DNA of 64,000 bases, taken from assembly GCF_023701485.1 (NCBI RefSeq), contig NZ_JAMQBK010000020.1:1-64000 (forward strand), in the 5' to 3' direction. The translations under genes and the position numbers were made by a program. This DNA is from Aporhodopirellula aestuarii (lineage in GTDB: Bacteria > Planctomycetota > Planctomycetia > Pirellulales > Pirellulaceae). The notes beneath the pieces were generated by a model, which saw only the letters and a list, made by a program, of their open reading frames with translations, was not told the origin of the DNA and ran no database searches. Position 1 is the first letter of the stretch. Each line of letters opens with the position of its first letter. Positions 10,369-39,325 of the stretch are shown here, in pieces.

Positions 10369-11991
10369 ATGAATCTCTTTTTCCTCATGTTGCGGTCATC
10401 GTGGAAGGCGAGCGTTGCCTCGATCGTACTCGGCGGCGCCAGCGGATTAGCGACATTGACGCTCATCACGCTGATTCACAAGTCGTTCAGCAATGAAGGT
10501 ATGCAATCAGCAGCTCTGCCGGCGTTATTCGTCGTTGCCTGTACCGCCGTATTGGTCCTTCAAATCCTCTCAAAATGCATCCTGACCCGATTGTCGCAAT
10601 CGACGGCAGCCCGATTGCAATTCGAACTGTGCAATCGAATCATGGCTGCACCGCTGCCTGAACTGGAGTCCGTCGGCCCTCACCGACTGCTTGCGACTCT
10701 CGGCGGCGATGTCGGCGCGATCACCGGCGCCCTGTCTAATTTCCCCTCCGTCTGTGCCAGTGCGATGGTCCTGATCAGCGGTGTGGGCTATCTCGCGAGC
10801 CTTTCGATTCCGCTCGCCGCTTGCACGGTCATCATGGCGTCCTTCGCCATCGCCAGCTATTTGGCGGGGGTCCATTGGGCCAACTTTCACTTGCGACAGG
10901 CTCGCGAAGACCGCGACGAAGTCAGCAAGCAACTACAAGCGATGGTTTTCGGCATCAAGGAACTCAAGGCAAATAACCGTCGCTGCATCGATTTCCTGTA
11001 CGACGTGTTGCTGCCCGCCGACACCAGGATGCGTGAACGACTGATCAAAGGATCCGATATCCTCGGCGGCGCCCACACGTGGGGGCGTCTATCCTTGTTC
11101 ATCGGCATCGGGTTACTGATCTTTGTGTGGCCGCGTATGTGGACGGTCACCCCCGAAACATTGATGGGCTACACCCTCACGATCATCTATCTTACCAGTC
11201 CCCTCGACAGCATCCTCGGATGGTTACCGTCGCTCAATCATGCCGCCATCTCGCTGAATAAGATCAATTCGCTCGGCCTGATGATCGATCCGGCCAAAGC
11301 CCCCGTCGTCAATTCCGCAAATACGGGATTTCGATCCATCGAATTGCGTAACGTTTCCTATTCGTACCGATCGCCAATTGAGGGCGAAAGCGGCTTTCAT
11401 TTAGGTCCAGTCGATTTGGAGGTACATCCCGGTGAGGTGCTATTCATCGTCGGAGGTAACGGCTGCGGCAAAACAACACTCGCCAAAATCTTAACCGGGC
11501 TCTACCCGCTGCAATCGGGAGAGATCTACGTCGATCGGTACTTGATCGACAACTCCTCGATGGGCGACTACCGACAATTGTTCTCGACAGTTTTCGTGGA
11601 GGGACACTTATTCGATCGATTGATCGGAATGGAGCCCAATCCGATGCTCCTGCGACACTGGGCCAAACGTCTCGGAATTGAAGACAAGGTCGACTTCGAG
11701 ACCGGCCACCTCAAAACGTACAAACTCTCTCGAGGACAACACAAACGACTCGCGATGTTGGTGGCATGTCTCGATGAACGCCCCGTTTTTGTGTTCGATG
11801 AATGGGCCGCGGAACAAGACCCGACTTTCAAAGAGATCTTCTATCGCGAAATCGTTCCAGAACTAAAAAAGAAAGGGCGAGCCGTCGTTGCCATTACACA
11901 CGATGATCGGTATTTCTTCGCAGCCGATCGCGTCGTCAAACTGGTCGACGGACAAGTCGAAACCGCCCAAAAGCAAGGATTCGCAGCATGA
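10369..11991 (+). CDS. SyrD/PvdE-like cyclic-peptide-type ABC exporter
   Basis: A 540-residue half-transporter with six membrane segments in the first 310 residues and a C-terminal nucleotide-binding domain. That domain has Walker A GGNGCGKTT (362-370), a signature LSRGQ (453-457) and Walker B VFVFDEWAA (D477, E478). Length and order match the SyrD/PvdE family, which moves peptides, siderophore precursors or lipopeptides from cytoplasm to periplasm. The ATG at 10369 is preceded by a purine-rich GAGGGA (10354-10359). The stop overlaps the start of the MacA-like gene by four bases, so they are translationally coupled. In pseudomonads PvdE similarly cooperates with a MacAB-like pump (PvdRT-OpmQ). 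Confidence 0.88.
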   Translation: MNLFFLMLRSSWKASVASIVLGGASGLATLTLITLIHKSFSNEGMQSAALPALFVVACTAVLVLQILSKCILTRLSQSTAARLQFELCNRIMAAPLPELESVGPHRLLATLGGDVGAITGALSNFPSVCASAMVLISGVGYLASLSIPLAACTVIMASFAIASYLAGVHWANFHLRQAREDRDEVSKQLQAMVFGIKELKANNRRCIDFLYDVLLPADTRMRERLIKGSDILGGAHTWGRLSLFIGIGLLIFVWPRMWTVTPETLMGYTLTIIYLTSPLDSILGWLPSLNHAAISLNKINSLGLMIDPAKAPVVNSANTGFRSIELRNVSYSYRSPIEGESGFHLGPVDLEVHPGEVLFIVGGNGCGKTTLAKILTGLYPLQSGEIYVDRYLIDNSSMGDYRQLFSTVFVEGHLFDRLIGMEPNPMLLRHWAKRLGIEDKVDFETGHLKTYKLSRGQHKRLAMLVACLDERPVFVFDEWAAEQDPTFKEIFYREIVPELKKKGRAVVAITHDDRYFFAADRVVKLVDGQVETAQKQGFAA

Positions 11992-13339: not shown

Positions 13340-15412
13340 TTGATCGAGCTCGGCGATATTTGCAAGACGTACCAAGTCGGTGACATTCCGTTGCCGGTCC
13401 TAAAAGGCATCACGCTCGACATTGACGCCGGAGAGTATGTCGCACTGATGGGAACGTCCGGGTCGGGCAAGACGACCTTGATGAACCTCCTGGGCAGCTT
13501 GGACCGCACAACCGCTGGCGTGTACAAGTTCGCGGACATTGACGTTTCGAGTCTTTCGAGCGGCGAACTCGCTGTTTTTCGCAACCGCCACGTCGGCTTC
13601 GTCTTCCAAAACTTCAACCTGCTGCCCCGCACCTCCGCACTCGACAACGTGCTACTTCCCACGCTGTACGCGACAGACGATCGCAGCCAAGCCGAGAGAA
13701 TCGAATACGCCAAACACCTGCTCACCGTCGTTGGTCTCGGCGGGCGAATGGATCATGCCCCGAATCAATTATCCGGAGGTGAGCGCCAACGCGTCGCGAT
13801 CGCACGTGCACTGATCAATCGCCCGCGATTGTTGCTCGCCGACGAACCAACCGGCAACCTCGACTCAAACACAGAACTTGAAATTCTCGATCTGTTTCGG
13901 AAGCTCAACCTCGAACACCGGATCACGTTGGTCGTCGTCACTCATGATGCGCAAGTCGCACGGAGTGCCGATCGAGTCGTTCACATGAAGGACGGCATCA
14001 TCGCGGATGATCAACTCAATCCAAGTTCCCATCCACCATCCGCCCCCGTCCAACCGAACTCCTCGAGAACAGCTTCCGAAACCCCCGTTTCGCTCGACGC
14101 TCGCACATCGGGGCAAATGGTCGTCGCGATGATCAACGCGGTCATGGTTTCGCTCGCGGCGCTCCGCACAAACGCGTTGCGAACCGCGCTGACCATGCTC
14201 GGCGTTGTCATCGGTGTCGCATCGGTGGTCAACGTGATGGAACTCAGCAGCGGTTCGTCGCGTGCGATCAAAGACACCGTGGCCAGCATGGGGGCCAACA
14301 TGATCAACGTGTCATCCACCTACACGCCAAGCGCAGGACGACGCCGGCGTTACGTTCCGTTGACACCGGCGGACGTCGCGTTGCTCCGAGAACAATGCCC
14401 CGCGGTACGTTTGACCGCCCCGATTGTTTTCGGACAAGTTCAACTGGTCTATGGCAATCGACGTTGCCGACCGACCTTTGTGCTGGGCAGTTCTCCTGAC
14501 TACCTGATCGGCCGCAATTGGTCCGAAATGGACATGGGACAGCTCTTTGACGACGAAGCGGTCTACGACGCTCAACGCGTGTGCGTCATCGGCCAAACCG
14601 TCGCTAACGACCTCTTCGAAGATGAATACCCGATCGGCAAAGAAATCCGGGCCAACGGTATTTCGCTCCGCGTCGTTGGCGTGCTCACTCCCAAAGGCGG
14701 CGACGTCATTGGAAACGACCAAGACGATATCATGCTCGCGCCGTGGACCACGTTTAAGTATCGAATCAACAGTCAATCCAACACGATCAGCCGTGTCGCC
14801 GCGTTTGAAGACCAAATGCCGAAGATGCAGCTCGCGTCCGCCAAACGCTCGACCCGCAATGCCCACCTGAACCAGATCTATGTTCAAGCATTAACGCCCG
14901 AACATGTTCCCGAAGCACGCGAGCAAATCCGCCTCGCTCTCTCCCGCCGACATGACGTCGATCCGGACGTTTTTCAAATCCAAGACATCACGGAAGTGTC
15001 CAAGGTTACCGCTCAAGTGGTCGCGGGCCTCTCCGCCCTTGGGCTGATCATTGCTGGCGTTTCGCTACTAGTCGGGGGCGTAGGCATCATGAACATCATG
15101 CTGGTCTCGGTAACCGAACGCACACGTGAAATCGGGCTGCGGATGGCTGTCGGAGCGAACCGCAACGCGATCCTTCGGCAGTTCCTTATCGAAGCCACTG
15201 TGCTGTGCCTGATCGGAGGGATCTTCGGGATCGTGCTGGGCCACGCCAGCTCCACGACGATCGGGTGGTTGATGGGGTGGCCAAACGAAATGTCATTTTG
15301 GGCTCCCATTGTCGCCGTAGGTGTCGCCGCCTCGGTCGGAATCATCTTTGGCTATTATCCGGCTCGAAAAGCCTCGATGCTGGACCCGATCGATGCACTT
15401 CGATACGAATAG
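13340..15412 (+). CDS. MacB-like ABC transporter (ATPase fused to permease)
   Basis: A 690-residue fusion of ATPase and permease. The ATPase (1-225) has Walker A GTSGSGKTT (38-46), signature LSGGE (144-148), Walker B LLLADEP (164-170) and H-loop H202. After a variable linker, a MacB-type permease has one membrane helix near residue 285, a large periplasmic domain, and three C-terminal helices of the FtsX type ending in YYPARKASMLDPIDALRYE. Such pumps use ATP to drive periplasmic substrates through a TolC channel. The start is TTG at 13340, supported by AGGA at 13327-13330. With the preceding genes it forms an export operon. Confidence 0.92.
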   Translation: MIELGDICKTYQVGDIPLPVLKGITLDIDAGEYVALMGTSGSGKTTLMNLLGSLDRTTAGVYKFADIDVSSLSSGELAVFRNRHVGFVFQNFNLLPRTSALDNVLLPTLYATDDRSQAERIEYAKHLLTVVGLGGRMDHAPNQLSGGERQRVAIARALINRPRLLLADEPTGNLDSNTELEILDLFRKLNLEHRITLVVVTHDAQVARSADRVVHMKDGIIADDQLNPSSHPPSAPVQPNSSRTASETPVSLDARTSGQMVVAMINAVMVSLAALRTNALRTALTMLGVVIGVASVVNVMELSSGSSRAIKDTVASMGANMINVSSTYTPSAGRRRRYVPLTPADVALLREQCPAVRLTAPIVFGQVQLVYGNRRCRPTFVLGSSPDYLIGRNWSEMDMGQLFDDEAVYDAQRVCVIGQTVANDLFEDEYPIGKEIRANGISLRVVGVLTPKGGDVIGNDQDDIMLAPWTTFKYRINSQSNTISRVAAFEDQMPKMQLASAKRSTRNAHLNQIYVQALTPEHVPEAREQIRLALSRRHDVDPDVFQIQDITEVSKVTAQVVAGLSALGLIIAGVSLLVGGVGIMNIMLVSVTERTREIGLRMAVGANRNAILRQFLIEATVLCLIGGIFGIVLGHASSTTIGWLMGWPNEMSFWAPIVAVGVAASVGIIFGYYPARKASMLDPIDALRYE

Positions 15413-15443: not shown

Positions 15444-15570
15444 TCTCTGGTGACCTGATAAGGCATGAGCCTGGGTTAGAAGTCCGACAACTCCGACGAA
15501 CGCAGCCTGCAACGTGCCAGCCGAATGCTCCGAATACAATCTCGACCGGAGATTGCGATGCTCCGTCCAG

Positions 15571-16491
15571 ATGAAGTGGGCACATCATCGCAGCGGCTGG
15601 CGTGACGTGCAGTCTGCCGTGCTCGAACGCCTAACACATCCACACGCATCCTGTGAGTTCTACGGCGAGCTTGAGGACGCGTTATTCCAAACGAAACCCT
15701 TTGAGAGCCCTTGGATTGGAGTCGCCCACCAAACATTTCACGCACCTGCCCATATTCCGACGATGTATGGCGGCCGCTCAGACCTCGATTTCCTACTGCA
15801 CCAGCATCCAAATCTCCGCTTAAGCCTTCCGCATTGCCGAGGTCTATTTACCAATTCCGAACACGTTGCCGCTCAACTACGCAAGCACGTCAGCGTTCCG
15901 GTCCAAACGCTGCAATTGCCAACCGCCCTGGATGTCGCTCAGTTTTCATTGGAACGATTCGCCGCAACGCGTCAAAAAACGATCGTTCAACTCGGCAATT
16001 GGCTGCGGCGTTTCTATCCGATCTACGATCTACCAGTAAAAGGTTATCGCCGAATTTGGTTGGCTGGAGGTGACTTCCGCCACAAGCACGCCCTCAAGTG
16101 TGAAGGGGTGCGTCGGCGGCGGTTTGCCTACGTCCGATGTCCCAAACACATCACGGATCAGGCCTACGACGATCTGCTAACCTGCAGCATCGCGGTAGTC
16201 GGATTATGGGAAGCGAACTGCAACAACTCGATCGTCGAATGCATTGCACGGGCAACGCCGGTGCTCACCAATCCGCTACCCGCCGTAAAGGAATACCTCG
16301 GCGAAGACTACCCGTTCTACTTCCAGACGTTGGACGAAGCGGCTCACAAACTGCAAGACGATCGGCTGATCCGAGAAACGACTGCGTATCTACAGGAACG
16401 TCGAAAACACCTTTGGAGCATCGACCGTTTCATCCACGAACTCACCGCGTCAGACATCTACACCAGCCTTCCAAGATGCGATCACGCCTAG
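15571..16491 (+). CDS. GT-B-type glycosyltransferase
   Basis: A 306-residue protein with the C-terminal half of a GT-B glycosyltransferase. The segment NNSIVECIARATPVLTNPLP, followed by AVKEYLGEDYPFYF, resembles the nucleotide-sugar-binding E-x7-E region of GT4/GT1-like enzymes. The N-terminal half has SPWIGVAHQTFHAP and LFTNSEHVAAQL, typical acceptor-domain features. An upstream in-frame ATG at 15514 exists, but MKWAHHRSGWRDVQ at 15571 is a more natural start. It follows the exporter genes on the plus strand and converges with the minus-strand sugar-transfer operon. Donor and acceptor cannot be read from the sequence. It should be cytoplasmic, as no signal is visible. Confidence 0.72.
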   Translation: MKWAHHRSGWRDVQSAVLERLTHPHASCEFYGELEDALFQTKPFESPWIGVAHQTFHAPAHIPTMYGGRSDLDFLLHQHPNLRLSLPHCRGLFTNSEHVAAQLRKHVSVPVQTLQLPTALDVAQFSLERFAATRQKTIVQLGNWLRRFYPIYDLPVKGYRRIWLAGGDFRHKHALKCEGVRRRRFAYVRCPKHITDQAYDDLLTCSIAVVGLWEANCNNSIVECIARATPVLTNPLPAVKEYLGEDYPFYFQTLDEAAHKLQDDRLIRETTAYLQERRKHLWSIDRFIHELTASDIYTSLPRCDHA

Positions 16492-16512: not shown

Positions 16513-17829
16513 TCAGATCGACGTATTCGGCGGCGTGTCGGTGTTGTCGATCGCGTAAGGTTGGTACGCGACCATTTCCACACGTTGCTGAGGATACAAA
16601 CGGTAGGTGATATTTCGCCATGACGCCTGACGGGCAACGATCGCTTGGAATGTCCAGATCATATGGGCCACCTGGCAAACCGGAATCAGCGCAAACACGC
16701 GTGTCCCTCGTGACCATGTCATCGGCGTCATTTGTTCGCGTCCTCCGCAATGCGACACCGCATCGCGAACCGAACGCTCCGCACACACGAATCCGCCGAA
16801 CATGATCAGATTCGAAACCAATATCGACGCGGCCAAAAACATCGCCGCGACGCCTTCCTGAACCACGATCGCGGCAACCAACATGGCGATCGCCGCCACC
16901 AGCAATCCGACCACCGCCACCGCATGAATGACGGTATTGATAAACGTTTTTTCAAAGATCCGCGACCACGTGAGCATCCGAGTCACGTAACGTCCTGCAA
17001 ACTTGAGTGAGCATTGATCACGATTCACCATGGTCAACCTCGGCTCAAAATAGACTCGTAAACCGAGTCGATCAAAGGCCTCCTTAACCGGTCCATCGTC
17101 AACAACCGATGTTTTCCATTTTTCAATTAGCCCGGATCGCCGCAGTTCGACGCACCGCATCGCGCACGTCCCGGCCCACGGATTGCTATTGACCGCCGTT
17201 GCGACCATCGCCCCCGAATTCCAAACGCTTCGCAACAACGATCCGTAGCCCAAACCCTCTGGGGCGAACCACTGAATCCCCGTCACGACGCCAACCTGAG
17301 GATCGGTCAACGGACGTAAAACATCTCGCAACCAATTCGCATACGGAACCACATCCGCGTCGATCATCACCACGAACTCACTGTCGGCGGACATTTGCTC
17401 TGTCGCTTGGACCAGCGAACTGCATTTCAAACTACAAGTCTTCGCTGGGTTCTGTAGCTCAAAAATTCTTAAACGATCCTTCGTATCCGATCGCGACTTG
17501 ATCTCCTGCGCCACCCGCCATGCCGGATCCCGACAACTGTCGATTACCAATATGATTTCAAAGTTGTCGTAGGCTTGCTCGAGCAACCTCGCCAAGGTTT
17601 CCGAAAGGAAGGGGTCACAACCTCTCAGCGACATCAACACCGATACTTTGCCGTCCTCACCCACATCGCTCGCCGATTCGCTTCGCGCCAACCGGCGGCC
17701 CACGATGAATACACGAAAGAACCACGCGCCCCCAAAGTGCACCAGCGACGAGGCCAGAAGCACCGATCCGATGAGCAATGAAAGCTGACCGACAGAAAAG
17801 AAGGGTGCGTTCAGTAGGGAAGAAAACAT
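16513..17829 (-). CDS. Membrane GT2/GT21-like glycosyltransferase (paralogue 1)
   Basis: A 438-residue GT-A enzyme resembling ceramide glucosyltransferase-like proteins. It has an N-terminal membrane helix (about 12-42) and a catalytic domain with DSCRD (97-101), metal-binding DAD (157-159), VDDGP with D244/D245 as candidate base, and RMLTW (284-288) as the degenerate (Q/R)xxRW motif. C-terminal membrane helices follow. The segment TCSLKCSS also occurs in the paralogue at 27760-29007. The frame is open far upstream through the next gene, but the ATG at 17829, five bases after the stop of the preceding gene, is the clear start. It probably glycosylates a lipid at the cytoplasmic membrane face. 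Confidence 0.85.
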   Translation of the reverse strand: MFSSLLNAPFFSVGQLSLLIGSVLLASSLVHFGGAWFFRVFIVGRRLARSESASDVGEDGKVSVLMSLRGCDPFLSETLARLLEQAYDNFEIILVIDSCRDPAWRVAQEIKSRSDTKDRLRIFELQNPAKTCSLKCSSLVQATEQMSADSEFVVMIDADVVPYANWLRDVLRPLTDPQVGVVTGIQWFAPEGLGYGSLLRSVWNSGAMVATAVNSNPWAGTCAMRCVELRRSGLIEKWKTSVVDDGPVKEAFDRLGLRVYFEPRLTMVNRDQCSLKFAGRYVTRMLTWSRIFEKTFINTVIHAVAVVGLLVAAIAMLVAAIVVQEGVAAMFLAASILVSNLIMFGGFVCAERSVRDAVSHCGGREQMTPMTWSRGTRVFALIPVCQVAHMIWTFQAIVARQASWRNITYRLYPQQRVEMVAYQPYAIDNTDTPPNTSI

Positions 17830-17834
17830 AAGTC

Positions 17835-18734
17835 TCACGAAACCGGCAACCGAACCATACTCCGCAGCAGCGACGCAAACCGGAAGACATCTTTCCCAAT
17901 CCGGAACGTCGCAAACGGAAGCCGGTGGATACCGTTTGCGTCCATCTTCCAGTCGGCGGTACTGCCCGAGAGCAAGTTCCTGCCTCCGGCGAGCCGTTGA
18001 TTTTCTCTCGCTTCGGGACCACTCACATACGCCGAAAACCGGCCACCTGAGACATGGTTGTAGCCGTGTTTTTGATGGATCACTGGAGCGACCTCGCTGA
18101 TGTCCACGACGGGAATCTGGGACGCCTTGCTCTGCCAAACCATCCAACTGTCCCAGTTGCCTCTCCCGATTGCAAAAGCAGGGACATCTCGAAACAGATC
18201 CGCGGGAAAAATGAAATAGTCCTTGCACACGATCGAAGCGTGCGTGCCATCGCAATCCAGTCGGCGGAAACACTCGGCGATCCATTCGTCGGTCGTATGA
18301 TCGACGATCTCGGGCACATCCAATTCGGTTCGCTGGCCAATCGCAAGCCAAGACTTCAACCCAGACTCCAACAACTGCTCAGCAGCACGCACAAACCGTC
18401 CGTCGAGAATGATATCGGCGTTGACGAACGCTCGCATCGAACCGCGTCCTTGCTCCGCCGCCAACCGGAACACCCCATCGAGTAGAGGCGTGCCATATCG
18501 GTTCATCTTCGTGGCCCGATAGCAGTTGCACTCCGCACGAATGTCGGCGGGAATACTCGAATCGGAAATCAGGATCACCTCGACGTCCGGGGACAACGCT
18601 CTCCAACTCGCGATCGCGTTTCGTTGATGCACATCCGCTTCGCCTACGAATGGTTTGAGCACCGTAAACAGGGTCAACAGTGGGGCCCTCGTATCGACGA
18701 CATGGCGAGTCGGTTCGGCCAACAATCGACTCAT
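17835..18734 (-). CDS. Putative GT-A-like glycosyltransferase of unknown family
   Basis: A 299-residue soluble protein that I cannot place in a named family. It has GT-A-like features: an N-terminal strand (LLTLFTVLKPF), EVILISDSS, and a possible metal motif in AFVNADIILDG followed by a helix. Late motifs are GRGNWDSWMVW and HQKHGYNHVSGG. The ATG at 18734 overlaps the stop of the GT8 gene (ATGA), and the next gene starts five bases after its stop, so it belongs to the glycosyltransferase operon. Context suggests sugar transfer or sugar modification, but no catalytic assignment is safe. Confidence 0.65.
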   Translation of the reverse strand: MSRLLAEPTRHVVDTRAPLLTLFTVLKPFVGEADVHQRNAIASWRALSPDVEVILISDSSIPADIRAECNCYRATKMNRYGTPLLDGVFRLAAEQGRGSMRAFVNADIILDGRFVRAAEQLLESGLKSWLAIGQRTELDVPEIVDHTTDEWIAECFRRLDCDGTHASIVCKDYFIFPADLFRDVPAFAIGRGNWDSWMVWQSKASQIPVVDISEVAPVIHQKHGYNHVSGGRFSAYVSGPEARENQRLAGGRNLLSGSTADWKMDANGIHRLPFATFRIGKDVFRFASLLRSMVRLPVS

Positions 18735-19792
18735 GAGACCGCCCACGCCGAAGCGATTTTGCGAGACGTGATCGTGCTGCGTTTGATCAACTCGACCATC
18801 CGACGATTAAACCAATTTTGGAAGCTAGGCGGTGGCACTGGCGTCCGCCAATTCTTCCATGCCGTGTCGGTAAGCCCTTCAAAGAACACTTCGCTGCGTG
18901 GATGATTCGAGTGGGCTTGCCACGGCTTGAACTCGGTCGTGAAATGCACGATTGCCGGATTCGTCTTCATCTCGATCCACAATTCACGGTCGATCGGAGC
19001 ATGAGCGTCTGAAGGGTACTCAAACACATGAGCCCCCTGGTTCCAACGCGGCTCGAAACGTCCCCACTGGCCATGGAACAGCACGTTCAACGCATACTGG
19101 TCCCAACACCAAACGTACTTTCGATTGTCGCGAAGAACCTTCAGCAGACGTTCGGCGACGTTATCTTCCCGCCAACGCTGCACGTTCAACACCATCACGC
19201 CGCTATTGAAATATTCTCCCGCGCCATCCAAACCCAACTCGCGATAGTTGGGTATCGGTCGCCACGCCGCCATGTAGGGATTGGCCAATGGAAAATTAGT
19301 ACACCCTAATCTTGCATCAATGAAAGGACACGCAATGTCTGTGGTGGCGAGACAGTATTGTTGCTGGACCGGCAAATCCCACAACGCGGCCAGGTCGTCT
19401 TTGACGTACAAGTCCGAATCGAGGTAGATAACTTTGTCAACATCATCGGGGACCAACTCGGCCGTCAGAAGGCGAAAGTAAGCCGTGTGCGAGATGTGAT
19501 GAGAGATATTCAGATCGGAAACACGCCCTCGATCCGGCTTGATCAAGTGGATTTCAATCGCCTCACCCGCGAGAGTCCGTTCCAACTTCGACCAGTTCTC
19601 ATCCCCGATATCACCAGCGAGCAGAAACAATCGAATTCGTTTTCCGGCGGCGAGATGACGACAGGAACTCTTGAGCGTCACCGCCAACGGCATCACGTAG
19701 GCATCATCGGCGGCGCATACCACATCGATCCGATTCGATATTTTTGATCGGTGTGAACATTGTTCGGCGGGAAGAGTATCGGACGCTAACAT
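18731..19792 (-). CDS. GT8-family glycosyltransferase
   Basis: A 353-residue retaining glycosyltransferase of the GT8 family (LgtC/GspA/glycogenin-like). It shows the N-terminal strand IDVVCAADDAYVMPLAVTL, the metal-binding VIYLDSDLYV with DSD at 125-127, the nucleotide-sugar segment EYFNSGVMVLN, and WDQYALN with GRFEPRWNQ late in the domain. Typical donors are UDP-glucose or UDP-galactose. It lies six bases after the stop of the upstream gene (19799-21097) and overlaps the next gene by four bases, the middle of a tight operon. No membrane segment is seen. Confidence 0.88.
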   Translation of the reverse strand: MLASDTLPAEQCSHRSKISNRIDVVCAADDAYVMPLAVTLKSSCRHLAAGKRIRLFLLAGDIGDENWSKLERTLAGEAIEIHLIKPDRGRVSDLNISHHISHTAYFRLLTAELVPDDVDKVIYLDSDLYVKDDLAALWDLPVQQQYCLATTDIACPFIDARLGCTNFPLANPYMAAWRPIPNYRELGLDGAGEYFNSGVMVLNVQRWREDNVAERLLKVLRDNRKYVWCWDQYALNVLFHGQWGRFEPRWNQGAHVFEYPSDAHAPIDRELWIEMKTNPAIVHFTTEFKPWQAHSNHPRSEVFFEGLTDTAWKNWRTPVPPPSFQNWFNRRMVELIKRSTITSRKIASAWAVS

Positions 19793-21097: not shown

Positions 21098-21278
21098 CGA
21101 TGGGCCCGTCCATGAGATAGAGCGTCGAAGCGTAATAAATCCACAGTCGACCGGTTCGATTGATCTTGAAACTATCGCCTATCGTGGAAAATGGATCAAG
21201 AGGGACGCAAAACTCCTCACGTTCCAGGACGGAGTGATTCCGTGGGACGAGGCTATGTCCGAACGTCGTCGGTGCCAT
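21098..21278 (-). pseudogene. Coding-like segment out of frame with the next gene
   Basis: An ATG at 21278, overlapping the end of the upstream glycosyltransferase gene by 26 bases, opens a frame of about 60 codons. It begins MAPTTFGHSLVPRNHSVLER and continues through STIGDSFKINRTGRLWIYY, with codon choice like real genes here. Near 21100 the sense fades and the neighbouring frame, that of the gene at 19799-21097, takes over. This could be a truncated gene, a frameshifted N-terminus of the next protein, or chance. The IGDSFKIN piece faintly resembles hexapeptide acyltransferases. Confidence 0.35.
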
Positions 21279-25594: not shown

Positions 25595-25665
25595 CAATCA
25601 CAATCCGAAAGAACCCAAACCGCGGACGTCGACGCAGTCCAATGCTCGCACCCGTCCGCACGACC

Positions 25666-30457: not shown

Positions 30458-33400
30458 TGGCGACGCGGATGAAACGTCGACGCGTCGAAGCAATCCAGAC
30501 CGTTTCAGATATCCATAACACGTTGAGATCAATCTCGCATCAGCGGGTGCACAGCTGATCCCGCTGGGCAACAAAGCCTGCGACGTCTGTTGGCAATCGA
30601 ATTTGCCGTGAATGCCCCGCTCGTTACCTGCCGTCAAACGTGGCATCAATACTTCGGAGAGCAGCTTGTATCCCTCTTCCGCTTCGCCGGCATGTTCTGA
30701 AAACGCCAGCAACCTCGCTTGCCAGTCTTCAAAGCTGATCAACTCAAGGTTCGCCCCGCCCTCGCTCATCCACTCAGTCAATGCTGTCGTCTGCATCGGA
30801 TGTGGATTCGTCAATTGAAAGTCTTTGCCCTTTGATTCCGGTTGCTGCGAGAGGAAAACGATTGCGCGTGCCACATAGTCGACAGGCGTCAGATCGAGGG
30901 CCAGATCACGGAAAGGCACCGCGCCGACCAATAAACACGCCCTCACGATGCTGTGCAGCAAATCATTCACATTCGCGACGCCCGTCTCGCTATGCCCGGT
31001 CACGTGCCCGGGACGATAGATCGTCACTGACAGCCCACTCTGCCGAGCCTCCTCGATCATCTTCTCACAGACCCACTTGCTTTGCGAATACCCATAGAGC
31101 AAGTCCTCGCAGCGTGGCAGTGGATCAGATTCCAGGATCACGCGTCCACGATTCTCGTCAGTTGCATACACTGTGAAGGTAGAGACGTGGTGCAGCGGTT
31201 TGAGACCGCGATGAAACGCCAAACGCAACATCTCCTGCGTTCCAACCACATTATCTGGCTTCAACGCGTGATAAGGCAACGCCAGATTGACGCTGGCGCC
31301 GTTGTGATAGATCACGTCGACCGAATCCGCCAACTGATCAAAGCTCTCATCCGACAGCCCCATCCGCGGATGCGAGAAATCGCCGACGACGATCTGAATC
31401 CGATCCTCGGACCCCCAATGTTGCAAGTCGTACTTCGCGAGGTTGTCAAGAATTCGACGTCGACCGGCCGATTCATCGTCCGCACGCACTAAACAAACCA
31501 CATCGGATGATGTCGTCTTTAACAACTCGCTCAACAATTGAGCGCCAATAAATCCGGTTGCCCCTGTTAGCAATACGCGAGGTGACTCAACGGGTTCCCG
31601 CACGACATCTGTTGTGACGATCGCCGGATCGAGCCGAGCTTCCTTTTCAAAATCGATTGCATCGATCGACGCTCCCGATCCGGTCGCGGTACCATCCGAC
31701 TCCACCGAATCAAGCCGCGACATCAGATCCATAATCGTCCGGCTCAGCTCGAGCACGCTCGGTCCGCTGAGGATGCGATTCATCGGGATCTTTGTTCCGG
31801 TCGCGGTTTCGAGCCGGTTGATCAGTTCGACGGCCATCAACGAGTCGATTCCCACTTGGGTTAGCGACGCCACGCGATCGACTTTGTCCGCTTCGATACC
31901 AAACACTCCCGCCACTTGCTGTGCCACGAGATCAGCCAATATCCCCAACCGCTCTTTCGGCGATGCATCTTGCAGTTCGGACTGCAACCCTGAATTAGAT
32001 CGGTTGGAGGACGCATTTTGTGTAACGAGCGAGTACATCGGCAGCTTTCCAACCGCCGCGCTCAATCGTCCCAATTGTTTCCAATCCACGTCAGCAGCAC
32101 CGATCAGGGCGGTGTCACGCAGGATCATCTCCGCAAACACATCGAGTGCCTCGCTCATTCCAAACGCTTGCAACCCGATACCCTCGAGATACTCTGCCGT
32201 CTTTTGGTTTCTCGCCACGAAACCAGCCCCAAGCACGGCCCCCCAATTCACAGTAAGCGAGGGCAATCCGCGGGCCTGACGATGCTGAGCCAGCGAGTCG
32301 AGAAAACTATTTCCGGCGTTGTAGTTCGCTTGACGGGCTGCCCCCACCACATTCGAGAACGATGAGAAACAGATGAAATGATCGAGCGAGAGATTTTGCG
32401 TCGATTGGTGAAGGTTCCACGCACCGAGCATTTTGGGATACAGAACCTTGCTGAAACTCCCCTCGTCCAGATCGGCGATGAACATGTCATCGAGTACCAT
32501 CGCCGCATGAACCACGCCCTTGAGCACTGACCCATCGGCCTCAATTTCACCGATCACTCGTTCGACGTCGTCTCGGTTTGTTACGTCGCCTCGCGCGTCG
32601 GTAATCGTGATTCCTTCTGCTCGAAGGGTCTCAATTTCAATCGCAGTCTCTTCACGCGGACCGCTGCGACTCATCAACACCAGGCGCCGCGCACCTTGCC
32701 GGATCATCCACTTCGCGATCTCAAACCCGAATCCACCCGCACCACCCGTAATCAGATAGCTCGCATCCCCACGCAGTAATTTCCCGTCTTCGGTACACGG
32801 CCCGATAGACAGTGTCTCCGCAGAGGACGAACCCCCATCAAAAGACAGAACATTCTTACCCGTGTGGCGTCCCTGTGCCATGAACCGGAACGCGTCGACG
32901 ACATTGCCGATGGGAAAAACATGATGCGGCAAGGGGCGATAAGTTCCCGATTCAAGACGCAATGATACGTCAGCCAAGATCGCTGCGATTCGGCTCGGTC
33001 TGTCCGCAATGATCTGAGCCAGATCGATCATGTGGTAAGAGATATTGTTTTTAAACGCTGCGAGGCCGACCTTGGAGTTCTCATAAACGTCGATTTTACC
33101 AATCTCCAGGAACCTGCCAAAAGGCGCCAACACCGACAGACTCTTCGGTATGAATTCACCGGCCAATGAATTGAGGACGGCGTCGACACCTTCGCCCCCG
33201 GTGAGCTCCATGATCTGATCGGCAAACTCGACAGTCCGTGAGTTCATCACATGAGCCACGCCCATCGATTTCAATAATTCGCGTTTCTCGGGTGTTCCAG
33301 CGGTGGCGAAGATTTCCAGCCCGAGGCTTTGGGCCACTTGCACAGCCGCTTGACCGATACCACCGGCAGCGGCATGAATCAAAATCTTCTCGCCCGCTTG

Positions 33401-36400
33401 CATTCTTGCAACGTGATGAATTGCAAAATGAGTCGTCAAGAAAACGGTGGGCAACGTCGCCGCTTGCTCAAACGAGATGTTCGCTGGTTGACGGAGTACC
33501 AACCGGTGATCGACTGTGACATGACTGCGAAAGGCATAAGGTGCAATTCCGGCAACGTGGTCACCGACGTCGATGTCAGTGACATTGGCACCTCGTGCGA
33601 CGACAACACCCGAAAAATCATCGCCAAACCAAAGCAAATCTTCGGTCGTGCCCGGATACATCCCGAGTGCCTTCATCACGTCTCGGAAATTGATTCCTCC
33701 AGCCATGACGCGGACTTCGATTTCATCCGGTCCAGGCTGATTACGTGTCGTCTCGTTAAGCGACAGATGCTCAAGTACACCTGCCTTCTTCATCTGCAAT
33801 CGAAACGGCACCACGTCGCGATTGGAAATCAACGCGTCCCGGCTTCGTTGCTCGAGATCGTCATGCGAGACACTTTGCAAGCGATTTACAAAACGCCGGC
33901 CATCGCGATACGCAACCTCGCGTTCGTCGCTCTCATGCGTGACTTCGTTAAAGACATCATCCGCGTCGAAATTACTCGGGATCGGATCGAGATCAATGAG
34001 CGTCCATCGGTACTGACTCGCTTCATTGTTCGCCACGCGAAGAAAACCGACTAGTGGCGAGGCAGACAAACCGTTGACCGGGTCGGTTTCCTCAACCTGC
34101 TGCACCGAACGGGTAACGAAATAAACCCGGTGGATCGTTGTCATATCAAACGTGTCCAGGGCGTGACAAAGCCCCAACGCACTGAACACGCCTGAACCTT
34201 GTTCCTCCATCAAACGCTGGGAAGTGACTTCGTCCCAATCATTATCAAGCGTCCAGCAATGGATGATCCTTGCCAAATCAGCGTGGTGGAGGCCAAGGTC
34301 ATCGACCACTCGTTGAATTTCGCAGGCACTCCCGCTGTTAAGGAGAAATTCAGACTCACTGATTCTCTCAAACTCCGATCCACGACGGAGCAAAATGGGG
34401 CGGTGATGATCCCGTTCGAACTTTGCGGCGATCGCATCTCCCGTCCCACCGTGATCCGCAAAGATCAGCACCGTCGATGGCTCGCGCGACAGGGTCGCGG
34501 TCGATAATTCAACCGTCTTCACGCACGGTCCGCGTGTGACAAAGGCAGCCTGCTCCGTTTCCTCATCGTTCGATGAACACGTAAATGATTGCACTGCGTC
34601 GAAGCCGCAATCCGCGAGCAGCGTCTGCCACTGCGATCGATCCAGCAACGGCGAATTTTCACGCAGGTCGACATCGGCATATCGCCACCAACCATCGAGC
34701 AATCCGAACACGTTGTCCCAAATCGGACGCGAACGAACGACTTCCAAAAACGCAAACATTCCCTCCGAGGCCAAACACGATTTCACGTGAGCCAGCGTTT
34801 CACGCAGATCCGACGTGGCGTGCAACACATTGGTTGCGACGATCAAATCATAAGCATGCGGATCGATCCCCTGGCCGGCTGGATCGCGTTCGATATCAAG
34901 CGACCTAAAAACCACAGCCGGATGATGAGAGAAATTGCGTTTCGCATCCGCAATGAATCTGCTGCCGATATCAGTGAACGTGTATTCGATTTGTTCGGGT
35001 GGCAGCACATCGAGCAAACTCCGCGTAAGAGACCCCGTCCCCGCACCAATTTCCAAAACACGCAGCACACGGCGTTCGGGAATCTGCTCAGCGCATTTGG
35101 CGATCGCGACTTGCAACAACCGGTTGAACGTCGAAAACTCGCCCGCCTCGCAGTAGAACGTATCGAGCATGCTGCTCGAACCGCCCGGGAACAACAACTC
35201 CAATGGGTCCACGTCCCCACACCAAACATCTGCCAGACGCGGACCGGTCGCCTTGATCAACGCGACTTCTGATGCAAATCGTGGGAATTGGTTTTCCAGT
35301 TCAGTCAACGAATCGGTCACCTCGACCCGCACCGGTTCACGAACCACCTGCCAACCGGACTCATGCGTTCGAAGGAGGCCGGCCTGCGTCAGCCAACCCA
35401 ACTCGGCTCGTAGCAGCCGGCGATGCGTTTCATCGCCCCCGAGGGAAGCGAAAACTTGATCGAATTCAAAACGCTCACCCACCGAGAATGACCACCCTGA
35501 ATCAACGACCCCATTCTCGATCAGTTGCAGAACGATCCGCTGCATCCGCGGAACGAACTCGTTGTAGTATTCCGAAAGCCCTGCCTCGGCATAGAAGTTG
35601 GGAATCGATTCTGAAACGGCGGCAACGACGTCTTGGGTTGATGGCAGATTGGCCGAACCAACGTTTCCCACCCCGTATAGCCGCTGCGGCTGCCATTTGA
35701 ATTGGTAGAGGCGGCCACTGCTATCGGCGGCCGCATCGGCTTGCTCGACCCGAGCCACGCGAAAACGGGATATCGTCGCAAGCGGTTTGCCGTGTTCGTC
35801 AAAAACGCCAACCGAGTATTCGACCGACGTGCCGACCGAACCGGTTTGGATCGCATGGGCCCAAAACTCATTTGGGATTGCTCGCGTGTGAAGCTGCACG
35901 CGTCCGATCAATTCAGGCAAATAGAGACAATTGCTTTTTTCGCTGTGGCCGGAAACGTAGCGGGTTCCGTGCGTCGCTTGAAAACACGCATCGAGCACCG
36001 CCGGATGCATGCAATACTGCGCCGCATCGCCGGCAACGCGGTCCGAAACAGCGATACGCGAAAGTGACTCGGGATTCGAAAGCTTCGCACCGCGCGCATC
36101 ATTCCAAGACGTTTGGATCAACGAAAAGTCGGTCCCGAATCCGTAACCAAGTTCGCGTAAATCACGGTACATGTCCTCATGCATGATCGCTGCCGGAAAT
36201 TGATTGCGTAGTTCGTCAAGATCGATCGAATGCGACTCAGGCAACGCGGGACGCGATACCAACCGACCTTTGGCATGCACCTCCCAATTCACATCGCCAC
36301 GCGACGCGTTTGACCGCGCATCGGATCCCGACGAACTATAAACAGTGAAGGATTTCGTCTCCGCCTCAAAGACAACTTGCACGATCGGAACAGCGGTCTC

Positions 36401-39325
36401 CGATACAAACAATGCTTTTTCGCATTCGAGATCTTCGACCGCATACGAATCGCCCGGATACAATTCCGCCGCGATCGCCAAGCCGATCTCCGCATAACCT
36501 GCCGCAGGGAAAACAATTCCATCCCAAATTTGATGATCGTTCAAATAGGGGAACAGATGCGGATCGACGTGAAATTGCCACGTCGGCTTGGCAACGTTCA
36601 ACCGTTCGCCGAGTAACGGATGCAGTGGTGGGTCAACTCGTGTGGCCGTGTCACCTTGATCCAACCAGTATTCCTGGTAATTCCACGGATACGACGGTTG
36701 CGGAACGAACGTTCCAGAGCCTTGATTCAGTGACTGCCACTCGACCTTCGCCCCGTCAACGTGCAACTTGGCAAGATTAGTGGCGAGTTCCACCGCATCG
36801 TCCGTCGTGCGGGAAATCGAATGAAGAATTGTGGCGACCGCATTCTGATTCGAAACGCACGCGTCGATCGAACTCCGCATCGACGGGTGCGGTCCGATTT
36901 CGAGGAATCGCTGCGCACCACCCGCCACCAACGTTGCCATCGCGGATTCAAAACGGACCGGCTCACGGACGTTTGCCCACCAATACGACGCGTCCATTTG
37001 TTCGCCACATTGCTCGCGTCCCGACACCGTTGAGATCAACGGCACACGCGACGGGCGTGGCGACAAATGGGCCAGCGATGTGAGCAACTCATCCTTGATG
37101 GGCTCCATTTGATGAGTATGAAAGGCATAGTCGAGCCCCAACCAACGAACGAATCGGCCGCTCGCTTCGAGCTTCTCGGCAATCAATTCGAGTGGCTCGA
37201 TGTCGCCTCCGATCGTGACCAACGAGGGACTGTTTTCGGCGGTGATTTGAACCCGACCGCCATGCGACCCGATGAACTTCCTCGCCTCCTGGGGGGACAC
37301 TCCCGCAGCCAACATCCGCCCCGCCCCGCCGGTCTCGTTTTGCAATCGGCTGCGATGATAGATCAGGCTTACCGCATCGCTGAGCGAATAGATGCCTGCA
37401 CACCACGCCGCCGCGACTTCGCCGACGCTATGGCCGACAACGGACGTCGGATGAATCCCCCAGGACGCCCACAATCGAGCCAAAGCGACCTGCAAAGCAA
37501 AGATCGCCGGTTGCGCCACGCGTGTTTGCTGAATGTTCGATTCACCCTCGGGAAGAAACATCTCGTGCAACAACGACCAACCGCTCTGGGCTTGAAACAG
37601 CTCGTCGATCTCCTCGACTGTTTCACGCGCAATCGGTTCACGCTGAATCAGGCGCTGCCCCATCCCACACCACTGGGAACCCTGTCCAGTAAACACGAAC
37701 ACGCTCTGGTCGGCCCGGTCGCTCGGACGTCCACAGACAATCCCGTCGCTCGCCTCTCCCTGGCGAAGCCATTTCGTAAGCCCTCGCGTGAGCTCACGAG
37801 TGTTACGACCAACGACCGTCAGCCGCTGTTCGTGGTGTTCTTTGCGGGCCCCCGCCGAAGAGCAGAAATCCGCGAGTTCACCGTCAAACGTCTTGAGCCG
37901 TTTTCGATATTGATTGACGTACTCACGCAGTGACGATTCGTCTCTCGCCGAGATCGGCAAAACGAACGGTCGGTCGGCGATGGCGTGATCACGCTGTGGC
38001 GACGTAGGCTTTGGCGCCGCCTGCAACACCACGTGCGCATTCGTACCGCCAAAACCAAACGAGTTCACCGAGGCAAGCGGCTGGACCGGTCCGTCCGACG
38101 GCAGCGATCGAAGCTCGGTGGGCACGTTGAGGTGGTAACGATCCAGGGGAATGGATGGATTGGGAATTTCAAAATTGCGGTTGGCCGGAATCTGTTTCCG
38201 ATCGAGCACCAAGGCAACTTTGATCAAACCGGCAATCCCCGACGCCGATTCGAGATGTCCGATATTGGTTTTGATCGACCCCATCCAACAAACATCATCG
38301 ACACCGCGCCCTTCCGAGAGCACCCGTCCAAGGGCTTCGGCTTCAACGGGGTCACCCACTGGAGTACCAGTTCCATGAGCTTCCACGTAGGCAACGTCTC
38401 GCGGAGCAATCCCTGCGTTGCGGTACGCAGTCCTCAGCATCTCACTTTGACCGGCGACACTCGGGACCGTCATCGAGGAAGTTTGTCCGTCCTGATTCAC
38501 TACGGCCGAACGCAAAACCGCATACACTCGATCGTGGTCCGCAATCGCCCGAGAAAGCGGTTTGAGGAGGACGATCCCCGCTCCTTCACCCCGCACGTAA
38601 CCGTCGGCCCGCGAATCGAACGCAAAGCACTCACCCGTCGGCGACAACATCGACGCTTTGCTAAAACCGATACTGGTGTTGGGCGTGATCAACGCATTGA
38701 CGCCGCCGGCGAGCGCCGTGTCACATTCACCCGACCAAATCGAGCGGCATGCCAGGGCGACGGCGACCAACGCTGACGAACATGCCGTGTCTACCGCGAT
38801 GCTCGGTCCCTTCAAATCCAACATGTAAGAGATGCGATTGGCCGCGATACTGAGCGTGCCGCCCGTGTTGGTGTGAACGTCGAGGTTTGCTAAATCGTTG
38901 AGTTGCAAACTGGCGTAGTCGTGCCCCGACGCGCCGATAAATACGCCGACGTTCGTCCCTCGCATTTTACTCGGTGGGGTCCCTGCGTCCTCGCACGCCT
39001 CCCAAGCGGTCTCGAGCAACCACCGCTGCTGCGGATCCATCCGCATCGCCTCGCGGGGGGAGATACCCCAAAACGCAGCATCGAAATACTTGATCCGGTC
39101 GACGAAACCGCCACGTCGCGTAACCATCCGCCCTTTCGACTCAGCGTCGCTGTGGTGGTATCGATCGACATGCCAACGGTCGGGGGGAACCTCTCCGATC
39201 GCACTGGCACCGCTAACCAAGAGTTGCCACAACGAATCAACGTTATTCGCACCGCCTGGGAATCGGCAGCCTACGCCCACCAAGGCCAATGGTTCACGTG
39301 AGGGAAGTTGATTCCGTTCTGTCAT
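30401..39325 (-). CDS. Highly reducing type I polyketide synthase with terminal thioester reductase
   Basis: A 2974-residue single-module PKS with every domain needed for full reduction. KS (about 8-435): C182 in DTACSSAL, H317, H357. AT (540-860): S633 in GHSVGE, with YAFH at 733-736. DH (900-1190): H931 and D1112. C-methyltransferase (1385-1545): VLEIGAGTG at 1423-1431. ER (1840-2160): NFRDVMKALG and AAAGGIG. KR (2185-2415): S2322, Y2335, N2339, with an LDD motif at 2278-2280 suggesting B-type. ACP (2455-2535): S2495 in GIDSL. Reductase (2583-2900): GATGFIGA and Y2746/K2750. A structural pseudo-KR (about 1605-1835) precedes ER. It likely works iteratively and releases an aldehyde or alcohol by NAD(P)H reduction. 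No PPTase gene is nearby. Confidence 0.93.
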   Translation of the reverse strand: MTERNQLPSREPLALVGVGCRFPGGANNVDSLWQLLVSGASAIGEVPPDRWHVDRYHHSDAESKGRMVTRRGGFVDRIKYFDAAFWGISPREAMRMDPQQRWLLETAWEACEDAGTPPSKMRGTNVGVFIGASGHDYASLQLNDLANLDVHTNTGGTLSIAANRISYMLDLKGPSIAVDTACSSALVAVALACRSIWSGECDTALAGGVNALITPNTSIGFSKASMLSPTGECFAFDSRADGYVRGEGAGIVLLKPLSRAIADHDRVYAVLRSAVVNQDGQTSSMTVPSVAGQSEMLRTAYRNAGIAPRDVAYVEAHGTGTPVGDPVEAEALGRVLSEGRGVDDVCWMGSIKTNIGHLESASGIAGLIKVALVLDRKQIPANRNFEIPNPSIPLDRYHLNVPTELRSLPSDGPVQPLASVNSFGFGGTNAHVVLQAAPKPTSPQRDHAIADRPFVLPISARDESSLREYVNQYRKRLKTFDGELADFCSSAGARKEHHEQRLTVVGRNTRELTRGLTKWLRQGEASDGIVCGRPSDRADQSVFVFTGQGSQWCGMGQRLIQREPIARETVEEIDELFQAQSGWSLLHEMFLPEGESNIQQTRVAQPAIFALQVALARLWASWGIHPTSVVGHSVGEVAAAWCAGIYSLSDAVSLIYHRSRLQNETGGAGRMLAAGVSPQEARKFIGSHGGRVQITAENSPSLVTIGGDIEPLELIAEKLEASGRFVRWLGLDYAFHTHQMEPIKDELLTSLAHLSPRPSRVPLISTVSGREQCGEQMDASYWWANVREPVRFESAMATLVAGGAQRFLEIGPHPSMRSSIDACVSNQNAVATILHSISRTTDDAVELATNLAKLHVDGAKVEWQSLNQGSGTFVPQPSYPWNYQEYWLDQGDTATRVDPPLHPLLGERLNVAKPTWQFHVDPHLFPYLNDHQIWDGIVFPAAGYAEIGLAIAAELYPGDSYAVEDLECEKALFVSETAVPIVQVVFEAETKSFTVYSSSGSDARSNASRGDVNWEVHAKGRLVSRPALPESHSIDLDELRNQFPAAIMHEDMYRDLRELGYGFGTDFSLIQTSWNDARGAKLSNPESLSRIAVSDRVAGDAAQYCMHPAVLDACFQATHGTRYVSGHSEKSNCLYLPELIGRVQLHTRAIPNEFWAHAIQTGSVGTSVEYSVGVFDEHGKPLATISRFRVARVEQADAAADSSGRLYQFKWQPQRLYGVGNVGSANLPSTQDVVAAVSESIPNFYAEAGLSEYYNEFVPRMQRIVLQLIENGVVDSGWSFSVGERFEFDQVFASLGGDETHRRLLRAELGWLTQAGLLRTHESGWQVVREPVRVEVTDSLTELENQFPRFASEVALIKATGPRLADVWCGDVDPLELLFPGGSSSMLDTFYCEAGEFSTFNRLLQVAIAKCAEQIPERRVLRVLEIGAGTGSLTRSLLDVLPPEQIEYTFTDIGSRFIADAKRNFSHHPAVVFRSLDIERDPAGQGIDPHAYDLIVATNVLHATSDLRETLAHVKSCLASEGMFAFLEVVRSRPIWDNVFGLLDGWWRYADVDLRENSPLLDRSQWQTLLADCGFDAVQSFTCSSNDEETEQAAFVTRGPCVKTVELSTATLSREPSTVLIFADHGGTGDAIAAKFERDHHRPILLRRGSEFERISESEFLLNSGSACEIQRVVDDLGLHHADLARIIHCWTLDNDWDEVTSQRLMEEQGSGVFSALGLCHALDTFDMTTIHRVYFVTRSVQQVEETDPVNGLSASPLVGFLRVANNEASQYRWTLIDLDPIPSNFDADDVFNEVTHESDEREVAYRDGRRFVNRLQSVSHDDLEQRSRDALISNRDVVPFRLQMKKAGVLEHLSLNETTRNQPGPDEIEVRVMAGGINFRDVMKALGMYPGTTEDLLWFGDDFSGVVVARGANVTDIDVGDHVAGIAPYAFRSHVTVDHRLVLRQPANISFEQAATLPTVFLTTHFAIHHVARMQAGEKILIHAAAGGIGQAAVQVAQSLGLEIFATAGTPEKRELLKSMGVAHVMNSRTVEFADQIMELTGGEGVDAVLNSLAGEFIPKSLSVLAPFGRFLEIGKIDVYENSKVGLAAFKNNISYHMIDLAQIIADRPSRIAAILADVSLRLESGTYRPLPHHVFPIGNVVDAFRFMAQGRHTGKNVLSFDGGSSSAETLSIGPCTEDGKLLRGDASYLITGGAGGFGFEIAKWMIRQGARRLVLMSRSGPREETAIEIETLRAEGITITDARGDVTNRDDVERVIGEIEADGSVLKGVVHAAMVLDDMFIADLDEGSFSKVLYPKMLGAWNLHQSTQNLSLDHFICFSSFSNVVGAARQANYNAGNSFLDSLAQHRQARGLPSLTVNWGAVLGAGFVARNQKTAEYLEGIGLQAFGMSEALDVFAEMILRDTALIGAADVDWKQLGRLSAAVGKLPMYSLVTQNASSNRSNSGLQSELQDASPKERLGILADLVAQQVAGVFGIEADKVDRVASLTQVGIDSLMAVELINRLETATGTKIPMNRILSGPSVLELSRTIMDLMSRLDSVESDGTATGSGASIDAIDFEKEARLDPAIVTTDVVREPVESPRVLLTGATGFIGAQLLSELLKTTSSDVVCLVRADDESAGRRRILDNLAKYDLQHWGSEDRIQIVVGDFSHPRMGLSDESFDQLADSVDVIYHNGASVNLALPYHALKPDNVVGTQEMLRLAFHRGLKPLHHVSTFTVYATDENRGRVILESDPLPRCEDLLYGYSQSKWVCEKMIEEARQSGLSVTIYRPGHVTGHSETGVANVNDLLHSIVRACLLVGAVPFRDLALDLTPVDYVARAIVFLSQQPESKGKDFQLTNPHPMQTTALTEWMSEGGANLELISFEDWQARLLAFSEHAGEAEEGYKLLSEVLMPRLTAGNERGIHGKFDCQQTSQALLPSGISCAPADARLISTCYGYLKRSGLLRRVDVSSASPSRIRRVGGLVQVRNEEVH

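Follow-up and report, generated by a model that had tools for sequence, protein, structure and literature searches.

The stretch of DNA that was analysed, referred to below as the window (64,000 nucleotides), carries at 10369-39325 a run of 16 genes that spans 29 kb and was assigned from a list of open reading frames together with family profiles (Table 1). An earlier note on this DNA had described a polyketide synthase (PKS), an acyltransferase, glycosyltransferases, a sulfotransferase and export components lying here with almost no unrelated genes, and this description is borne out, as each named component was found at the position it had been given and none of the 16 genes is clearly unrelated to the others.

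Table 1. Genes of the cluster, their predicted products and the matches on which each assignment is based
Position	Strand	Predicted product	Evidence
10369-11991	+	SyrD/PvdE-type ABC transporter, 540 aa	TIGR01194 415.6 bits, cut-off 286.2
11988-13250	+	MacA-like periplasmic adaptor	TIGR01730 137 bits, cut-off 94.9; MacA model 102.4, below cut-off 342
13340-15412	+	MacB-type ABC transporter	ABC_tran, MacB_PCD and FtsX over cut-offs
15514-16491	+	Probable GT-B glycosyltransferase, weak	PF13692 E 0.14
16513-17829	-	Membrane GT2/GT21-type glycosyltransferase	Pfam over cut-off on overlong ORF
17835-18746	-	GT-A fold glycosyltransferase	Model pLDDT 74.7; Foldseek PDB best E 8e-8
18731-19792	-	GT8 glycosyltransferase	PF01501 140.5 bits, cut-off 24.3
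19799-21097	-	Putative GT-B glycosyltransferase, DUF6716-like, weak	PF20471 19.3 bits, cut-off 27
21253-22596	-	GT4-type glycosyltransferase	PF13692 56.2 bits, cut-off 27
22626-23483	+	PAPS-dependent sulfotransferase	PF00685 86.4 bits, cut-off 22; best PDB match SULT1A1
23480-24418	-	GT2 glycosyltransferase	PF00535 88.2 bits, cut-off 23.3
24437-25597	-	GT4-type glycosyltransferase	PF13692 72.1 bits, cut-off 27
25666-27627	-	TolC-type outer-membrane protein	PF02321 63.8 bits, cut-off 22
27760-29007	-	HpnI-like membrane GT2	PF13641 59 bits, cut-off 27; HpnI model 95.3, below cut-off 310
29114-30457	+	PapA5-like condensation-fold acyltransferase, HHACCDG	Condensation 32.4 bits, cut-off 30.6; PDB 1q9j E 5.7e-6
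30401-39325	-	Iterative highly reducing PKS, 2974 aa	Pfam; TIGR01746 336.6 bits, cut-off 213.35; motifs

The starts of some genes and the borders of the cluster were assessed by comparison with relatives. The longest open reading frame of the SyrD-like gene begins at 9931, and alignments of its protein start at residue 147, which corresponds to base 10369, in G003 and in the relatives in G001, G002, G004 and G009, and extend to residue 120 in G025 and residue 132 in G160; the start at 10369 that had been proposed earlier is on this comparison the better one. The starts of relatives' alignments likewise show that the 612-aa frame at 16513-18351 is overlong and that the gene occupies 16513-17829, and the gene at 21253-22596 may have an internal start, with relatives aligning from residue 31. 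To the left of the cluster lies an alcohol-dehydrogenase-like gene and to the right a Na/Ca exchanger gene (Pfam); since both also flank the cluster in G003 and neither is matched in the G025 stretch, which continues for about 1.6 kb past the SyrD-like gene and 6 kb past the PKS gene, the borders given in the earlier note are plausible. A comparison of G+C content in 4-kb steps (53.7-57.7% in the cluster, 53.3-56.7% in the flanks) gives no sign either way of a compositional island. Further to the left, a DUF1559 protein with an N_methyl start, as would fit a planctomycete, is encoded at 6304-7563.

The domain order of the PKS according to Pfam is KS-AT-DH-cMT-ER-KR-ACP-TR, TR being a thioester reductase domain, and the motifs found are C/H/H in the KS, GHSVGE with YAFH in the AT, EIGAGTG in the cMT, YNAGN in the KR, DSL in the ACP, YSQSK in the TR and the second DH motif, DACFQ. 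Three sites gave no match in the pattern search of the PKS, namely the first site of the DH, that of the ER and the cofactor site of the KR, and the segments DHQIWDGIVFP, HAAAGGIG and ITGGAGGFG, picked out by eye, are taken as these three. At the first of them, at about residues 930-940, the window has DHQIWDG and five PKS-TR relatives (G121 excluded) have DHQ[IV]W[DN]G, so that the Gly stands one place later than in the usual pattern, HxxxG. The AT motif YAFH is associated with a preference for malonyl-CoA, which suggests that this AT takes malonyl-CoA, and any methyl branches would therefore stem from the cMT domain. The top NCBIfam match is Pks2 of the mycobacterial sulfolipid pathway (NF041183), at 1265.5 bits and below the cut-off of 2400, and the top PDB match is mycocerosic acid synthase (MAS), at 1038.1 bits; a PfaA-type PKS was considered and rejected, as the PfaA model reaches 331.5 bits against a cut-off of 1010.1. 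No starter-activating ligase was found among the Pfam matches of the cluster. Three other large ketosynthase genes are present in the window's genome (G000:C78, G000:C123 and G000:C131, with frames of 2545, 3306 and 3039 aa).

For the acyltransferase, PapA5 is the only PDB match at E <= 0.01, and the PapA5 model scores 41.9 bits against a cut-off of 396. The HHxxxD motif is present in 25 of 26 relatives, the exception being QHSACDG in G039, a count that sets aside a 27th relative, a fragment at the end of the G121 region. The genome of the window contains two matches to APS kinase, and a route to PAPS is therefore likely to be present.

The nine glycosyltransferases counted in the earlier note can be retained if they are graded, six being over Pfam cut-offs, one assigned by fold and two weak. 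The first of the weak ones, at 15514-16491, has a fold model of low quality (pLDDT 37.6), a match to a SenB-type glycosyltransferase in a PDB profile search (E 0.012), and three scanned relatives of which one, in L043, matches PF13524 at E 0.003. The protein assigned by fold, at 17835-18746, has no Pfam match, and its model aligns to PDB entries with modest TM-scores (<= 0.48 by query length); the 50 PDB matches listed for it are, by title or as known proteins, glycosyltransferases, except 3ckq, which is called a 'mycobacterial protein'. Its relative in G025 is interrupted by an in-frame stop (26195-27157 of the joined L042+L043). The HpnI-like GT2 is a candidate for the enzyme that places the first sugar on a lipid alcohol.

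Among the export proteins, the MacB-type transporter has the domain layout of MacB and scores 460.9 with the MacB equivalog model (cut-off 966), and the SyrD-like protein is likely to flip the predicted glycolipid across the inner membrane. In our reading, the SyrD-like protein and the MacA-like/MacB/TolC set would divide inner-membrane and onward export between them as in the pyoverdine system, for which the relevant passages of the literature describe PvdE as the likeliest carrier of the precursor across the inner membrane, with in vitro proof pending (PMC6206403), and the MacB homologue PvdT as picking up pyoverdine in the periplasm (PMC5985334). Passages of the second source add that SyrD-type proteins could deliver toxins to the periplasm, and that heterocyst glycolipids are exported by DevBCA together with a TolC homologue. 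PKS genes adjoin SyrD, MFP and MacB homologues in three further genomes (G019, G109 and G152; L140-L145), in which the SyrD relatives are at 41-44% and, in G152, the adjoining gene encodes condensation, AMP-binding and thioesterase domains (NRPS); this is a second, separate use of the pump type.

The gene set is kept in related genomes: 14-16 of the 16 genes occur together in five other genomes, which with the window represent four genera. All 16 are present in G003 and in G025 (there with the split relative of 17835), 15 in G151 and in G121, both of which are without a relative of 15514, and 14 in G160, which is without both that gene and the sulfotransferase. The PKS, the glycosyltransferase block and the exporter are rearranged in G151 and G121, and the cluster of G160 is interrupted in its middle by hydrolase and sulfatase genes. 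On the strength of this conservation beyond the genus, a chance neighbourhood is rejected. A sixth genome, G001, has at most seven of the 16 genes; it lacks a PapA-like gene, and its related glycosyltransferases number only two, which are 32-38% alike. The genes inside the G160 cluster (L077, L098) include sulfatase, GH32-like, esterase-like and beta-helix genes; elsewhere, a sulfatase and a sialate-esterase-like gene adjoin the HpnI-like glycosyltransferase in G004 (L048), and a relative of that sulfatase lies at the same position in G002 (L051).

Searches of 241 genomes of the family with the PKS and with the SyrD-like protein place this conservation in a wider frame. The PKS matches 18 genomes at E <= 1e-300, which can be classed, leaving out second PKS matches in G151 and G121, as follows: in seven the TR directly follows the ACP (the window, G003, G025, G160, G151, G001 and G121, with TR identities to the window of 48-64% in the other six); in four a condensation domain stands between ACP and TR (G167 by Pfam; G020, G018 and G185 by BLAST); in five no TR is visible in the domain content of the fetched regions (G172, G415, G396, G421 and G162); G184 has a distant PKS with a TR at 37% and no SyrD/MacB-type exporter in its region; and the match in G114 ends at a contig end. 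Outside the family, when a sample of 294 genomes of the phylum was searched with the PKS, only the window matched at E <= 1e-300, and in a scan of genome contigs the sole contig with PKS-related pieces was L009, from a gammaproteobacterial MAG, where the best segment is at 39% and the pieces are divided between two ORFs, of which the second extends into the TR part. The SyrD-like protein matches 16 of the 241 genomes at E <= 1e-90, of which 13 at >= 59%, namely the seven PKS-TR genomes, five with a stand-alone reductase (G002, G004, G009, G132 and G444), and G167, in which an MMPL-type PKS locus is accompanied by a 59% SyrD relative on a separate 4.5-kb contig. In all seven genomes with this PKS-TR type the exporter lies no more than about 21 kb away, and the hypergeometric probability of the PKS-TR/SyrD overlap, which ignores relatedness and serves as a guide only, is 2e-10 when genomes are counted and 4e-5 when genera are. 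Of the 13 genomes of the window's genus, three are of the PKS type, three are of the reductase type and seven have no SyrD relative at E <= 1e-90. The DUF6716-like gene occurs at E <= 1e-30 in 9 of 296 genomes sampled from the order, the window included.

The same comparisons reveal that the components are exchanged between clusters. The evidence comes from 47 regions including the window, scored by matches > 55 bits and obtained with the acyltransferase (54 of the 98 genomes with a match), PKS, DUF6716-like and SyrD-like queries; they were picked from the best matches and hence are no census. PKS-TR is combined with SyrD/MacB/TolC in seven regions. In five others a reductase of about 500 aa, adjoining MacB in every case, is combined with SyrD/MacB/TolC, a PapA5-like enzyme and an HpnI-like glycosyltransferase; PKS-TR is absent from these clusters, and their reductase is 25-27% like the TR and in the one scanned (G004) matches PF07993. 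A reductase is found with MMPL and a PapA5-like enzyme in four regions (G057, G038, G080 and G036, the last with no HpnI-like glycosyltransferase match > 55 bits), and the PKS with a condensation domain (PKS-C-TR) is found with MMPL in three (G167, G018 and G185), with no MMPL seen in the G020 region, whose contig is 19.9 kb long. These assignments were confirmed by Pfam for PF07993 in G057, G038 and G004 and for MMPL in G057, G038, G167 and G018, and the rest are by BLAST. None of the 47 regions has both MMPL and SyrD matches, though in the genome of G167 the two do occur, on separate contigs. The sulfotransferase is present in five of the seven PKS-TR clusters, and the acyltransferase and the cMT domain in six each. 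The sulfation and acylation proposed in the earlier note are not constant for the cluster type.

Modules also occur apart. The fetched regions of G148, G058 and G043, and partially that of G029, contain the glycosyltransferase block in the absence of PKS or exporter, the block DUF6716-GT8-GT-A-GT2-GT4 standing alone in G148 and G058 and lacking GT4 in G043, and the exporter without the PKS is found in the fetched regions of G002, G004, G009, G132 and G444. Acyltransferase relatives have only an HpnI-like glycosyltransferase nearby in G028 and G052, only generic ABC and desaturase matches in G093, and no reductase, MMPL or pump of this kind nearby in G093, G039, G071, G021, G074, G012, G005 and G010 or at the second copies in G000 and G003, which speaks against a tight system; the enzyme family extends beyond it. 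The earlier note had named independent occurrence of the PKS, sugar genes and exporters in related genomes as an outcome that would count against it, and this outcome is found in part, since modules are met apart but nearly the whole set is also kept together in the five genomes described above; the notion of one system stands in so far as the genes form one conserved cluster, and is weakened as a fixed set by the modules that occur apart. Our reading of the sequence comparisons is that the locus would be a modular system and not a chance neighbourhood.

The history of the pump was read from sequence identities and gene trees. RpoB segment identity to the window is 93-99% in nine genomes of the same genus and 83-91% in six others, yet MacB identity is 88% in G003, 88% in G025 and 85% in G160, the last two belonging to other genera, and only 64-65% in G001, G002, G004 and G009 of the same genus, with no MacB match at E <= 1e-100 in G005, G006, G010 and G012, also of the same genus. 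The MacB and SyrD-like trees unite six of the seven PKS-type clusters, from four genera (100/99, 100/100), and separate them from same-genus reductase-type clusters, against the order of RpoB identity, while the reductase-type clusters, which come from three genera, are united in a group of their own (100/99 in the MacB tree, 87/100 in the SyrD-like tree). The MacB of G001 joins the reductase-type side at 96/94, and G001 is unplaced in the SyrD-like tree. In the tree of the HpnI-like glycosyltransferase the reductase type is again one group (98/99), and in the MFP and TolC trees, which are not decisive, the types are poorly separated. The MacB and SyrD-like trees follow cluster type, so the pump has moved largely together with its biosynthetic partner, perhaps between genera.

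Taken as a whole, the locus is by these comparisons real and coherent, and its product is a prediction. We regard it as fairly probable that one cluster here both makes and exports a polyketide glycolipid of the cell surface, the genes, domains, most catalytic motifs and co-conservation being observed and the steps of biosynthesis and export predicted from them. Against this reading count the modules met apart, the sulfotransferase, acyltransferase or cMT missing from some PKS-TR clusters, the reduced cluster of G001 and the position of its MacB, the poor separation of types in the MFP and TolC trees, the findings in G184 and G167, the occurrence of SyrD relatives in only six of 13 genomes of the genus, the lack of a starter-activating ligase in the cluster and the two weak glycosyltransferase assignments. 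The product would most likely be a methyl-branched polyketide alcohol that is glycosylated, acylated and sulfated. In the proposed pathway the PKS would extend a starter by malonyl units, methylate the chain with its cMT domain and reduce it fully, and the TR would release it as a fatty aldehyde or alcohol; on the inner side of the cytoplasmic membrane the HpnI-like GT2 would attach an initial sugar, which the remaining glycosyltransferases would extend to an oligosaccharide; acylation would fall to the PapA5-like enzyme and sulfation to the sulfotransferase; the SyrD-like ABC protein would then flip the glycolipid to the periplasm, and MacA-like/MacB/TolC would carry it onward to the outer surface. 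That a fatty-acyl-reductase-like protein replaces PKS-TR in otherwise similar clusters fits a glycolipid built on a lipid alcohol.

The pump itself raises the question of whether the cargo is instead a diffusible glycosylated polyketide, such as an antibiotic, surfactant or metal-binding compound, that is secreted to the medium and is not an envelope lipid. SyrD-like and MacB-type pumps are described in passages of two sources as carrying lipopeptides and pyoverdine (PMC5985334, PMC6206403), the more distant SyrD relatives of G019, G109 and G152 adjoin PKS genes, one of them with NRPS domains, and a patchy distribution is usual for secondary metabolites; but nine glycosyltransferases, an HpnI-like lipid glycosyltransferase and the interchange with reductase-like and MMPL modules fit a lipid better, and we hold a diffusible product to be unlikely. 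A different emphasis would make the sugar part the important one, with the PKS providing a lipid anchor for a surface oligo- or polysaccharide and the exporter moving an LPS-like molecule. The glycosyltransferase block that stands by itself in G148 and G058, and without GT4 in G043, probably serves to make a glycan even where this PKS is absent, which is in keeping with that idea, yet no polymerase, Wzx, Wzy or Wzm/Wzt-like family is among the Pfam matches listed for the 16 genes and the exporter is of the MacB type, so that a surface glycan of this kind seems decidedly improbable.

The occurrence of each module apart in other genomes would also be expected if two or three independent loci, for a PKS-TR lipid, for a glycan and for an efflux pump unrelated to either, happened to be neighbours; this is very hard to reconcile with the retention of the set in five other genomes, in three of which the order is changed or genes are inserted, and with MacB and SyrD-like trees that follow cluster type, and we give it very little credence. 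The preferred reading, a single cluster for a surface glycolipid, can be extended to the modules themselves. It is conceivable, with a chance that we place a little short of even, that the clusters form a two-by-two family of exchangeable glycolipid factories, in which either a PKS-reductase or a stand-alone fatty-acyl reductase is combined with either SyrD/MacB/TolC or MMPL around a core that would consist of the HpnI-like lipid glycosyltransferase and a PapA5-like or built-in condensation-domain acyltransferase. If this is true, these bacteria have a surface-lipid class of their own, with a logic parallel to that of mycobacterial outer-membrane lipids, in which head, lipid and pump behave as cassettes.

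Type I PKS clusters are listed in planctomycete genome papers, and passages of four of these papers name no isolated product of such a PKS and offer at most similarity-based pathway guesses (PMC13190842, PMC9692418, PMC4982196, PMC12910023). The locus offers a concrete product class, and the natural swaps of lipid source and pump hint at the roles of the genes. The glycolipid reading, if correct, would mean that two ABC proteins of a kind familiar from lipopeptide and siderophore export serve here for a polyketide glycolipid, and that a mycobacteria-like PKS and acyltransferase occur in unrelated bacteria.

Among the papers listed by searches of open-licence literature no close match to a described cluster was seen. 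Heterocyst glycolipids and mycobacterial sulfolipids, the two separate parallels of the earlier note, and pyoverdine export each have some features in common with the window, and each differs from it in a defining feature that was tested. The heterocyst hgl island with DevBCA-TolC (excerpts of PMC8064123 and PMC11804610) resembles the window in its PKS-made lipid, TR release, which in the window is indicated by the TIGR01746 score, glycosyltransferase and MacB-type export via TolC. The window differs in having one MAS/Pks2-like PKS with cMT and its own TR, which falls below the cut-off of the PfaA model, used here for the PfaA/HglE type of PKS; in the scores of its exporter with DevA (201.2, cut-off 295.8) and DevB (63.4, cut-off 129); and in the addition of many glycosyltransferases, a PapA5-like enzyme, a sulfotransferase and a SyrD-like pump. 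The mycobacterial sulfolipid-1/dimycocerosate system (Pks2/MAS, PapA, Stf0, MmpL8; for sulfolipid-1, excerpts of PMC9989471) resembles the window in that the best NCBIfam and PDB matches of the PKS are Pks2 and MAS, that the one PDB match of the acyltransferase is PapA5 and that a sulfotransferase is present; the PKS of the window, however, has cMT and TR, PKS and acyltransferase remain below the Pks2 and PapA5 cut-offs, the sulfotransferase belongs to PF00685 with SULT1A1 as best PDB match, and two MMPL queries from relatives give no match > 55 bits in the window. The PKS-C-TR/MMPL loci of G167, G018 and G185 have a related PKS and TR and, in two of the three regions, an HpnI-like glycosyltransferase, with the differences that the condensation domain lies within the PKS and MMPL replaces SyrD/MacB/TolC. 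Pyoverdine export by PvdE and PvdRT-OpmQ likewise joins a SyrD/PvdE-type ABC protein to MacA-like, MacB and OEP-type proteins, and the window exceeds the cut-off of the cyclic-peptide exporter model TIGR01194 and falls short of the MacA and MacB equivalog cut-offs; its cargo would come from a PKS and glycosyltransferases, and the listed Pfam matches include no adenylation domain of the NRPS kind. By the tests made, the locus is a member of none of these systems; in its way of working it would combine the heterocyst glycolipid and mycobacterial lipid systems with a pump laid out as for pyoverdine.
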